From a virus: a stretch of 20,098 bases of DNA. The notes beneath the pieces were generated by a model, which worked only from the letters and a program-made list of their open reading frames with translations, made no database searches and was not told the DNA's origin. Position numbers and translations under genes: made by a program. This document shows, in pieces, positions 2,460-5,255 of the stretch. How positions within the stretch are numbered: the stretch's first letter is position 1; each line of letters opens with the position of its first letter. The stretch is from the IMG/VR virus record IMGVR_UViG_3300042509_000843, positions 1-20,098 of that record; one strand, 5' to 3'.

Positions 2460-3187
2460 AGAGAATCCTTCCAGTCAATCTGCTTCTTGTGAGCAGATGC
2501 AATTGGAAGGGATGGTTGAGAGTCTTTCTTCGGGAAAATCCCCTTCCATCCACTAGCAATTGAGTTCTCGACGGCAGTCGGGAAGTCAGCAGAGGTAAAC
2601 TCTCGGGACCACTTGGTCAGTGATGCTGCCAGTCCGGTCTTCTTGTAGCCTTCTCGCTTCTCGGCTTTGTACTGGAGCCATAACTTAACGGCTTGGAGAC
2701 AGCTATCGGTTCGCAAGCTCTCCGGTAGCTCAACTCCGAAGGAAACCTCCCATGGCGACTTAGGAGCCGCTGTATCTTTCTTATTAGGAGTAGGAGAAGG
2801 AGATGGAGAGCATATGTTTGGCATATCCACTGGCAATGCGGTGGGATATGCGGTGGCATTGCCAACCCATCTCTTTTTAGCGTTATCTGTCTGCTTTTGC
2901 CGATATTGATCCTGCTTCTCCCTTTCGGTCTCCATTCTTGGATTACGGAAGTTGCCTTCAGCATCAATCTGGAACTTGCTCTGGCATATGCGTTGGGAAT
3001 GCGGTGGCATACCAATGCAAACCCGAGTGAAATCACTTTCGGTTAACGATTCACGCGACCACTGGATGCAAAGCAGCGTAATGTAGGCTCCCTTCTCCTC
3101 GTTGGTCATTGTGATGGTTCCAGCTAAGAAATCGTCAGCGTAGAACTGGAAGGCTGGAGCCTTACGGGTTTTCTTGTCTTCGTTCAT
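2456..3187 (-). CDS. DUF1376 family phage replication protein (243 aa)
   Basis: The N-terminal 90 residues match the DUF1376 pattern: AFQFYADDFLAGTITMTNEEKGAY (written here as overlapping landmarks FYADDF at 15-20 and MTNEEKGAY at 27-35), then a Trp-containing helix. DUF1376 proteins sit next to DnaB or DnaC in many phages and are thought to act in replication initiation. A low-complexity Pro/Ser segment follows (about 110-140), then a helical C-terminal part with W-rich helices like those of replisome organisers. I start it at the ATG at 3187, which forms an ATGA overlap with the methyltransferase stop; an upstream extension would be read inside that gene. Iteron-like repeats lie inside its coding sequence. 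Confidence 0.85.
   Translation of the reverse strand: MNEDKKTRKAPAFQFYADDFLAGTITMTNEEKGAYITLLCIQWSRESLTESDFTRVCIGMPPHSQRICQSKFQIDAEGNFRNPRMETEREKQDQYRQKQTDNAKKRWVGNATAYPTALPVDMPNICSPSPSPTPNKKDTAAPKSPWEVSFGVELPESLRTDSCLQAVKLWLQYKAEKREGYKKTGLAASLTKWSREFTSADFPTAVENSIASGWKGIFPKKDSQPSLPIASAHKKQIDWKDSL
2832..3012. repeat. Iteron-like repeats, candidate replication origin
   Basis: Inside the DUF1376 gene the plus-strand nonamer ATGCGKTGG occurs four times in two pairs: 2836-2844 and 2848-2856 (12-base period), then 2988-2996 (ATGCGTTGG) and 2999-3007 (11-base period). The first pair is framed by a perfect 8-bp inverted repeat, GGCAATGC at 2832-2839 and GCATTGCC at 2856-2863. The second pair has a weaker version. 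A 25-base purine-rich run lies beside it at 2786-2810. The copies are read in different codon frames, so they are not explained by a repeated peptide. Origins with iterons inside an initiator gene are known in lambdoid phages; that this is one is inference. Confidence 0.45.
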
Positions 3188-3954
3188 AGGTCTTGGGTTA
3201 GGGTTTTCCACGCGATCATCATTGCGGCAGGGACTTGTCCGTTTCCGATTGCTCGCAGACGTTTTGGTCTGTCTGGAATGCAATTTTCCACCGGATCAGT
3301 TCCTCCATCTTGATTGGATTGAGATCTGTCCAGCCTAACGGCCAACCCATTAACCACTCGACCCACGTTGGGTTCAGCTTTCCACCAACCAGAGAAGCAA
3401 GTGTTGGAGTCTTTCGCGTTCTCTCCGCAGGATAGTTTCCCTCCTTTGCGTTGTGCGCTGTTGGAGTCGGCCAATATCCAGATCCGGTCTCTGAAGTGAT
3501 TGGCTCCTGCGTGATGCGCCCCCACAATACCCCACCTAGAATCATACCCCATCGAGGAAAGGTCACCGATAACGGTTCCAAGACCTCTGACCACAAGCAG
3601 CGGTGAGTTTTCCACAAAGACGAACCGAGGTCGTACCTCACCGACAATTCTCGCCATTTGCTTCCATAATCCGCTTTTCTCACCAGAAATCCCCCCCCCC
3701 CGTCCAGCGGAGGATATGTCTTGGCAGGGAAATCCACCGCTGACGATATCAATTGAGCCTCTCCAGTGGCTCCCATTGAATGTTTTAACGTCGTCCCATA
3801 TTGGGAATCGCTCCAAACATCCGTCTCTCTGTCGCGCCAATAAGCATTGTCTAGCGTAGGGATCAATCTCAACAGCGCATCTGGTGCGCCATCCAAGTTG
3901 TGATCCGCCCAACAAACCGCCTCCTGCTCCTGCAAAAAGTGCCAACTCATTCAT
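3184..3954 (-). CDS. C5 cytosine-specific DNA methyltransferase (256 aa)
   Basis: It transfers a methyl group from SAM to carbon 5 of cytosine in DNA, probably to protect phage DNA from host restriction. Motifs: I FAGAGGG (7-13), IV GGFPCQDIS with catalytic Cys77, VI VENSP (114-118), VIII-like NHFRDRIWI (152-160) and IX/X-like AIGNGQVP (235-242). It is short for the family (usually 300-400 aa), with only about 75 residues for target recognition between motifs VIII and IX. I chose the ATG at 3954 because GGAG lies six bases upstream; an ATG at 3984 falls inside a hairpin. The stop overlaps the DUF1376 start (ATGA). An 11-G tract encodes part of the post-motif-IV loop, and another long ORF overlaps nearly the whole gene. 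Confidence 0.92.
   Translation of the reverse strand: MNELALFAGAGGGLLGGSQLGWRTRCAVEIDPYARQCLLARQRDGCLERFPIWDDVKTFNGSHWRGSIDIVSGGFPCQDISSAGRGGGISGEKSGLWKQMARIVGEVRPRFVFVENSPLLVVRGLGTVIGDLSSMGYDSRWGIVGAHHAGANHFRDRIWILADSNSAQRKGGKLSCGENAKDSNTCFSGWWKAEPNVGRVVNGLAVRLDRSQSNQDGGTDPVENCIPDRPKRLRAIGNGQVPAAMMIAWKTLTQDL
3219..3950 (-). CDS. Overlapping alternative-frame ORF within the methyltransferase gene (243 aa)
   Basis: This same-strand ORF starts at an ATG four bases after the methyltransferase start and stays open for 243 codons in another frame. From about residue 90 its product has recognisable motifs: a YGSKW...RYD...SLWKT stretch, FPRWGM, GSGYWPTPTA and LNPTWVEWLMGWPLGWTDL. From memory, stand-alone phage proteins annotated as hypothetical or methyltransferase-associated carry the same set. 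The methyltransferase segment WWKAEPNVGRVVNGLAVRLD and the NPTWVEWLMGW segment are two readings of the same bases. It may be a real second protein, or a frame echo of conserved methyltransferase codons that databases have propagated. It shares the same RBS region, and no separate function is known. Confidence 0.45.
   Translation of the reverse strand: MSWHFLQEQEAVCWADHNLDGAPDALLRLIPTLDNAYWRDRETDVWSDSQYGTTLKHSMGATGEAQLISSAVDFPAKTYPPLDGGGGFLVRKADYGSKWRELSVRYDLGSSLWKTHRCLWSEVLEPLSVTFPRWGMILGGVLWGRITQEPITSETGSGYWPTPTAHNAKEGNYPAERTRKTPTLASLVGGKLNPTWVEWLMGWPLGWTDLNPIKMEELIRWKIAFQTDQNVCEQSETDKSLPQ
3691..3701. repeat. 11-bp homopolymeric G:C tract
   Basis: Eleven consecutive C on the plus strand (G on the coding strand) lie within the methyltransferase gene, encoding the glycines just after the PCQ motif. 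Tracts of this length slip during replication in phase-variable bacterial methyltransferase genes. At eleven G the methyltransferase frame is intact. Loss of one G, or gain of two, would shift the ribosome into the overlapping alternative frame, which is open on both sides of the tract. Confidence 0.85.
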
Positions 3955-3971
3955 GTATTCTCCAAAGAAAA

Positions 3972-4036
3972 CCCCGTCACGCATCGTGCTAGGAACTCGC
4001 GGATAATCAACGCGACGTTACACGATACGGACGGGG
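3972..4036 (-). terminator. Long hairpin with U-rich tail before the methyltransferase
   Basis: On the minus strand, arm CCCCGTCCGTATCGTG (4036-4021) pairs with CACGATGCGTGACGGGG (3988-3972). That gives 16 pairs with one G-U wobble and one bulged U. The 32-base loop holds an inner TCGCG/CGCGA stem. The 3' arm is followed at once by TTTTCTTT and then the methyltransferase RBS (GGAG) and ATG at 3954. The form is that of an intrinsic terminator or attenuator that would separate the methyltransferase, DUF1376 and dnaB genes from the upstream genes, or of a leader controlling translation. The 155-base gap 3955-4109 holds no convincing gene. Confidence 0.65.
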
Positions 4037-4292: not shown

Positions 4293-4548
4293 TTACTGGC
4301 CTGTAGTGTGGTGTTGGGTAGTTGCCGCGAGTTTTAGTATCAATGCGAAACTTTTTGGTTTCCATCAATCCAAGTTTGACTGACTTGTTGAGCACAAGTC
4401 CAGCAGCGTTAGGGGACAGCTTCCAAAGATCAGACCATTGGTTAGCGGTCAACCATCCCTCTGGGACGCTCTCTGCTTGATGTTGGATTGCTGCCCTCAG
4501 CCGCTTTAAAAGTTCGGCAGATGCCAATTCTGTTCGTTCTGAGGCCAT
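4270..4548 (-). CDS. Winged-helix-like small protein (92 aa)
   Basis: Not assigned to a named family. Residues about 30-65 (landmarks GWLTANQWSDLW, then AAGLVLNKSVKLGL) look like the helix-turn-helix core of a winged-helix domain, followed by a basic strand (ETKKFRID) that could be the wing. I start it at the ATG at 4548 (MASERTEL), inside the end of the metallophosphoesterase gene. The longer in-frame reading to 4677 is only the other frame of that gene. It may be a small DNA-binding regulator, but no target is visible. Confidence 0.65.
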   Translation of the reverse strand: MASERTELASAELLKRLRAAIQHQAESVPEGWLTANQWSDLWKLSPNAAGLVLNKSVKLGLMETKKFRIDTKTRGNYPTPHYRPVNEIPVKD

Positions 4549-5255
4549 TGGTGCAGGTATAGTTGCGCTGAGTTGTCTGTGTATTCTCCAAATACGATCC
4601 CGTGAGACCAAGCTAACGTTGATCGTCGTTTTCCTGCGTAATCCATTGACGGAATATCCGCCAAAGTTCCGACACAAAAGCCAATTGGATTTGACTGGTT
4701 GCGACCAGTCGCTTGACCGGCTCGATGAGCATGAGCCACAACACAGTTACCAAATGTCTCGGCTGAATCACGAATAAAGTTTTCCCCATAGAGAACCCCA
4801 TGTCCCCAACTAAAACCGCCCAACTTATAGAATGATCTTTCAAGACAGTCATGGGTCTCAATAAACGTATGGCAGTGTTTGTTAATAGGCTCAACCATTC
4901 GTTCCCATACAGCCTCCGCAAATCCTCTTACAACAGCGTTATGGTGATTGAGATACTTCTTAGCTCGCTCATCGTGATTTCCTAAAGTGAACACCGTTGG
5001 GCGTAACTCATTGAGGAACTTTACTCCCTCTTGGATATCATCAAGATAATCGTCCGCTTGATCCGAGTCATTTGGGTTTTGGAGTGAGCCAGATCGCAAT
5101 GAGGCGAGATCGAATGCGTCCCCTAAATGGATTATCTCGTCTGGCTTGAATTTCTCGCGGAACAATAGCACCGCAGCGAGTGCATCTTGATTGGCTCGGC
5201 TCCCATGACTGCAACCAATCGCCATAACTCGACGGTGGTGCTGAGTGATGTTCAC
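4506..5255 (-). CDS. Calcineurin-like metallophosphoesterase (249 aa)
   Basis: Metal-dependent phosphoesterase fold. Metal-ligand motifs in order are CSHG (15-18), HLGDAFD with GD at 45-46 and D49, GNHDE (92-96), WGHG (150-153) and AHAH (174-177). The first motif is normally D-x-H; here it reads C-S-H, so the usual aspartate ligand is a cysteine. Phage proteins of this family often act on phosphoesters in nucleic acids or nucleotides; the substrate is unknown here. The start is a GTG at 5255, the first possible start after an in-frame stop; an ATG at 5225 just before motif I is the alternative. Neither has a clear RBS. Confidence 0.85.
   Translation of the reverse strand: MNITQHHRRVMAIGCSHGSRANQDALAAVLLFREKFKPDEIIHLGDAFDLASLRSGSLQNPNDSDQADDYLDDIQEGVKFLNELRPTVFTLGNHDERAKKYLNHHNAVVRGFAEAVWERMVEPINKHCHTFIETHDCLERSFYKLGGFSWGHGVLYGENFIRDSAETFGNCVVAHAHRAGQATGRNQSNPIGFCVGTLADIPSMDYAGKRRSTLAWSHGIVFGEYTDNSAQLYLHQWPQNEQNWHLPNF

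Follow-up and report, generated by a model that had tools for sequence, protein, structure and literature searches.

Two overlapping reading frames of a phage gene probably specify both chains of a single cytosine-5 DNA methyltransferase

Introduction

To our knowledge, prokaryotes rarely have long overlaps on the same strand with conservation of both proteins. Among methyltransferases, Lee, Kam and Shaw reportedly described in 1995 that the small chain of M.EcoHK31I is read in a different frame from within the gene for the large chain. The motifs of M.EcoHK31I (YGGCCR) are divided between its chains, the large one having motifs I-VIII and X and the small polypeptide carrying only motif IX, and its recognition domain is predicted to lie on the large chain (PMC3404938). 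M.AquI (CYCGRG) also consists of two chains, the second of which has part of the recognition region together with motifs IX-X (PMC3404938). A paper on a "hidden HNH" in phage methylases concerns an insertion, which is another kind of overlap (PMC11855218). No report of the present overlap in phages was found in the open literature, and one may exist elsewhere.

The locus analyzed here lies in the IMG/VR virus record IMGVR_UViG_3300042509_000843, and the whole stretch of 20,098 bases is referred to below as the window. It contains a set of phage genes for replication and recombination, with a DnaB-type helicase, a DUF1376 protein, RusA, RecT, a PD-(D/E)XK nuclease, and a metallophosphatase. The metallophosphatase gene (PF00149) is found at 4506-5255 on the minus strand, upstream of the methyltransferase pair. 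We call the methyltransferase chain alpha and the second protein, which is read in the +1 frame of alpha, beta.

Results

Nested reading frames and their start cassette

The methyltransferase open reading frame covers 3184-3984 on the minus strand, the strand of all the window features described below. Position 3984 is the longest possible start, and the ATG at 3954 (MNELALF...) is the likely one, giving a C5-cytosine methyltransferase chain of 256 residues (3184-3954) with motifs I-VIII and X. The sequence contains motif I as FAGAGGG (3916-3936), motif IV as PCQ with the catalytic Cys (3721-3729), motif VI as VENSP (3601-3615), and motif X as GNGQVP (3229-3246). In alignment A2, which also covers motif I, residues P76 and C77 of motif IV, E115 and N116 of motif VI, and G237-Q240 of motif X are invariant.

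Beta has 243 residues from an ATG start and occupies 3219-3950. The list of open reading frames agrees with the initial annotation, which had placed a 243-codon frame on the same strand, four bases past the methyltransferase ATG and over most of that gene. All of the motifs named at that stage were also found, namely the four above in the alpha frame and GSGYWPTPTA, LNPTWVEWL, and MGWPLGWTDL in the beta frame. WWKAEPNVG and LNPTWVEWL had been taken to be the same bases; they do overlap, but only partially, as the bases of WWKAEPNVG give GGKLNPTWV and LNPTWVEWL sits over AEPNVGRVV.

Relatives were collected with beta among IMG/VR loci, and a second set, comprising 80 bacterial genomes and 80 viral contigs, was gathered with the alpha profile alone because selection on beta was to be avoided. 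The bacterial hosts of these alpha-selected loci belong to the Pseudomonadota, Chloroflexota, Verrucomicrobiota, Spirochaetota, and others, several of the records being metagenome bins that may be misassigned.

The two window frames begin in a dual start cassette, GGAG-5nt-ATGAATG (3948-3963). The GGAG (3963-3960) lies 5 bases before the alpha ATG (3954-3952) and 9 bases before the beta ATG (3950-3948). An alpha start of ATG, GTG, or TTG with the beta ATG exactly 4 nt later (xTGAATGAG) was seen in 128 of the 160 alpha-selected loci. The beta start is ATG in 141/160 of these loci, and a ribosome-site-like sequence is present within 20 bases in 125/160. The cassette suggests that both starts are used.

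The second frame is conserved as coding sequence

The methyltransferase was found in one relative phase in 71/71 of the beta-selected IMG/VR loci, a few of them frameshifted, and beta was in phase +1 in 160/160 of the alpha-selected loci, with a median overlap of ~760 bases. Not a single stop interrupts the overlap in these 160 loci, whereas synonymous shuffles of their alpha genes predict 4.9 per locus and were free of stops in 0.6% of cases. For the window gene, which is identical to locus L024, the shuffles averaged 7.3 stops in the beta frame, and zero was reached in 0 of 300.

A frame can also look like a protein when only its neighbor is coded: the methyltransferase alone would then be the product, and the beta frame would be open through the conserved protein and its codon use, to be copied afterwards by annotation. 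Such an echo exists and accounts for about half of the typical beta profile score. Genes with shuffled codons still reach a median of 157 bits with the beta profile, so profile similarity alone is misleading. The observed median is 308 bits, double the echo, and in the reverse test the alpha profile score was 378 bits compared with 123 bits for shuffles; these shuffles take no account of shared ancestry, which affects the stop counts and the fixed codons described below to a lesser degree, and the loci are not independent of one another. When conservation was tested column by column, the +2 control frame likewise exceeded its own shuffles, the excess being about half to two thirds of that for beta. 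We do not use this column test as the main argument because shared ancestry raises the +2 control frame too.

The clearest codon evidence for beta coding is given by two positions of alpha. The codon of Gly136 is GGG in 124 of 124 loci and that of Ala205 is GCC in 109 of 111, while third-base use is otherwise mixed, with other alpha glycines and alanines using all four bases. In WGM and MGWP, the residues of beta are fixed by these codons, GCC at Ala205 fixing beta P204. Within the clade of the window, about half of the changes seen in the overlap fall at third positions (57/123 for locus L038, for example) compared with roughly 64-71% in neighboring genes, and the overlap changes less overall than the upstream gene in most comparisons.

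The absence of stops, the doubled beta scores, and the fixed codons all speak against a frame echo, as do the retention of the beta ATG 4 nt past the alpha start and a beta frame that, in some loci (L043, L082, L091), continues after alpha has ended. That the methyltransferase alone is coded is, in our judgment, scarcely credible. The initial annotation had left the choice between a conserved dual-coding pair and a propagated echo to the variation among homologs, where normal synonymous variation together with frequent stops would have counted against dual coding. With no stops in 160 loci and reduced third-position changes, the codon-level tests uphold conserved dual coding and reject a pure echo. 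Beta is confirmed as a real second coding frame and is presumably translated.

Alpha is modeled without a small domain

Against PF00145, alpha gives an E-value of 1.6e-27 over profile positions 4-167 of 324 only, a stretch that covers motifs I-VIII, and all of its PADLOC methyltransferase matches, among the matches listed, stop near residue 180. Alpha has what is expected of the catalytic chain of a C5 methyltransferase (PF00145), that is, motifs I, IV (PCQ), VI (ENV-type), VIII, and X. In the AlphaFold model, residues 1-169 and a motif X helix (242-253) are folded, and the best PDB folds for the folded part are M.HaeIII and M.HhaI. Residues 170-239 are unfolded (pLDDT < 50). As modeled, alpha is without the small domain, having neither a recognition domain nor motif IX.

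Beta carries recognition-like and motif IX-like segments

The core of beta (SLWKTHRCLW...FPRWGMILGG, 3471-3641) overlaps alpha motifs VI-VIII; its residues W134, G135, and G140 are invariant, and W113, K114, and T115 are nearly so. A recognition-like segment with WPTPTA, GYWPTPTAHNAKEGNYPAERTRKTPTLASLVGG (3381-3479), precedes the putative motif IX and is repeated as WPTPxAxDxKG units in longer relatives. This motif IX, KLNPTWVEWLMGWPLGW (3330-3380), in which P194, E198, and P204 are invariant, contains KLNPTWVEWLMGWP, the pattern of motif IX in M.HhaI (KLHPRECARVMGYP). Several WPTPxAxD / LLPTPxAxD units are found in the long beta chains of loci L085, L092, and L290. Multispecific Bacillus phage methyltransferases have several recognition modules, and the repeated units of these long chains may, by analogy, be modules of the same kind.

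Beta matches phrog_1008, "DNA methyltransferase", in two stretches with an E-value of 5.7e-19, and this family also matches the beta chains of Vash, Lily, L085, and the deep branch described below. The second frame had been likened at first to stand-alone phage proteins of unknown function. Neither part of that description held: all family members examined lie over a C5 methyltransferase gene, and the best-matching PHROG is itself labeled as a methyltransferase. No Pfam or NCBIfam match was obtained for beta or its longer relatives, and no PDB match for beta, either by profile against solved structures or with its AlphaFold model, which is poor. The chain modeled alone has a mean pLDDT of 51, with values of 65-81 only around residues 170-230; this might fit a chain that needs a partner and is not evidence in itself. 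The short motif and the homology to single-chain relatives suggest that beta is the carrier of motif IX. As to the role of the second protein, which the initial annotation did not state, the evidence points to the recognition and motif IX half of the same enzyme.

Modules move between the frames

Four modules, the catalytic part, the beta core, motif IX, and motif X, were located in 265 distinct loci. The usual layout, with the core and motif IX on beta and motif X on alpha, is found in 213 of them. The beta core lies in the +1 frame in about 256 loci, the exceptions being frameshifted or unmatched, while motif IX is carried by beta in about 229 loci and by alpha in about 29. In L002 (Vash), L043, L082, L091, and L296, beta carries motif X as well. 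Conversely, motif IX is in the alpha frame in Propionibacterium phage PFR2, where PF00145 covers gp47 nearly whole, and in many mycobacteriophages. In the single chains ShiLan gp70, Philonius gp55, and PFR2 gp47, the catalytic part is separated from motif X by a beta-type segment together with motif IX.

Among relatives that are 97-99% identical over more than 2 kb, one-base gaps shift the recognition/IX/X module from the alpha frame to the beta frame. The mycobacteriophage loci L290 and L281 share 97.7% identity across 2.5 kb, in which there is only one gap, and motif IX is in the beta frame of the former and in the alpha frame of the latter. L297 and L288 differ in the same way through a one-base gap; the change in L297 may be damage, as its alpha is broken at motif VIII. 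Since the mycobacteriophage module occurs in either frame among close relatives, we take both chains to be parts of one enzyme. The same nested +1 phase and the same beta type are present in a deep Enterobacterales methyltransferase branch (L265-L268, CQPFS...RLRAYGNAINAEVA). L269, a member of this branch, matches phrog_31772.

The core outscores synonymous shuffles both where motif IX is on beta and where it is in alpha. In the 25 loci of the latter layout, it scores 42 bits compared with 12 bits for shuffles, which speaks against its being a mere echo in the single-chain phages. The persistence of the core in the +1 frame of these 25 loci could also mean that beta is a separate nested protein with its own job, for example a host nuclease inhibitor or a regulator, and beta alone has no recognized domain. 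However, persistence would also be expected of a core that contributes part of the small domain, and the simplest reading is that it does so in every layout. Beta shows C-terminal homology to the recognition/IX part of single-chain methyltransferases, motif X is on the beta chain in some loci, and alpha lacks the parts that beta appears to hold, all of which argues against a separate protein; we consider that explanation unlikely.

A poly-G run inside the overlap

The only homopolymer of at least 8 bases in the window is an 11-nt poly-G run (coding strand) inside the overlap, at 3691-3701, which is a possible slippage site. A slip of one base at this run would join alpha to the beta frame, and a programmed ribosomal frameshift might in this manner fuse the two chains, the fused chain being the enzyme. 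However, such a slip would lose motifs V-VIII, beta has its own conserved ATG behind a ribosome site, and long G runs are absent from most loci, runs of 8 or more occurring in 19/232. We thus regard a frameshift product as very improbable. No strong enrichment of poly-G was found, with 19 loci compared with 11 expected. In L022/L039, the run has one base fewer and alpha is joined to the beta frame, and L084 and L094, with G runs of 9-10, are frameshifted there. These length variants are possibly phase variation or assembly error.

One could also imagine an ancient, obligately dual-coding methyltransferase of two chains, in which frame-changing indels shift the recognition/IX/X modules from one chain to the other, the overlap serves as a frame switch by which recognition modules are reshuffled, and a poly-G run turns the enzyme on and off in some lineages. 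This broader scenario is tentative, and we do not hold it to be probable.

Discussion

We consider it highly likely that the two frames encode two chains of one cytosine-5 DNA methyltransferase, with alpha as the catalytic chain and beta as the recognition/IX chain. Alpha (3954-3184) would be the large catalytic domain, with SAM binding, the catalytic PCQ loop, and motif X. Beta (3950-3219) would provide most of the small DNA-reading domain, namely the core, the TPTA-type recognition segment, and motif IX. The neighboring ATGs, four bases apart behind one GGAG, could balance the amounts of the two chains, which would then assemble into an active methylase that marks the phage's own DNA. Its role would most likely be that of an orphan protective methylase because the genes flanking the methyltransferase pair, in the part of the window scanned, gave no match to a restriction nuclease.

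The methyltransferase overlap is mostly mis-annotated. Records are piecemeal, giving one frame, the other, or both as "DNA methylase". In Streptomyces phage Vash (L002), gp33 is annotated to start at 1840, which cuts off conserved beta sequence that begins upstream at 1432 and lies over gp32. Annotation habits against overlap may hide such beta parts widely. From a broader perspective, this overlap involves more than 700 shared bases and is found in phages and prophages of several bacterial phyla. Once the pair is recognized, a group of phage families of "unknown function" is accounted for, and many genes annotated as "orphan C5 methyltransferase" may represent only half an enzyme, seemingly dead if expressed alone. 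Natural split methyltransferases are also on offer for tool building.

The pair in the window is likened to M.EcoHK31I by motif division and nesting, not by sequence. The sequence of M.EcoHK31I was not identified in E. coli genomes and Enterobacterales, where only prophage-type relatives were seen. In both systems, motif IX is on the second polypeptide (KLNPTWVEWLMGWP in beta) and motif X on the first (GNGQVP in alpha), as in 213/265 loci. The small chain of M.EcoHK31I is also said to be nested within the large one in a different frame, as beta is in the +1 frame in 160/160 relatives. In contrast to the large chain of M.EcoHK31I, alpha has only a short disordered stretch, with the TPTA segment being on beta, and the window type, which is found among phages and prophages, seems to lack a nuclease partner. 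The layouts of Vash, L043, and L296 split the motifs as M.AquI does, whereas the window type keeps motif X on the catalytic chain and its chains share more than 700 bases.

Closer relatives are found among phages. The single-chain PFR2 gp47, Philonius gp55, and ShiLan gp70 have the same catalytic part followed by a beta-type recognition/IX module and motif X; unlike in the window, this module is in the alpha frame, and the beta core is still only in +1. Nested pairs have been annotated in Paenibacillus phage Lily (gp62/gp63, with the note "g62 internal gene" for gp63) and in Likha (gp51/gp52), but these annotations state neither the function of the nested protein nor a half-enzyme partnership, and the sequences are distant. 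A split enzyme of a similar kind is known in one bacterium, and here it appears to be kept across hundreds of phage and bacterial genomes. The features that seem to be new are its scale and its phage setting, a recognition segment located on beta, the start cassette, and modules that cross between frames.
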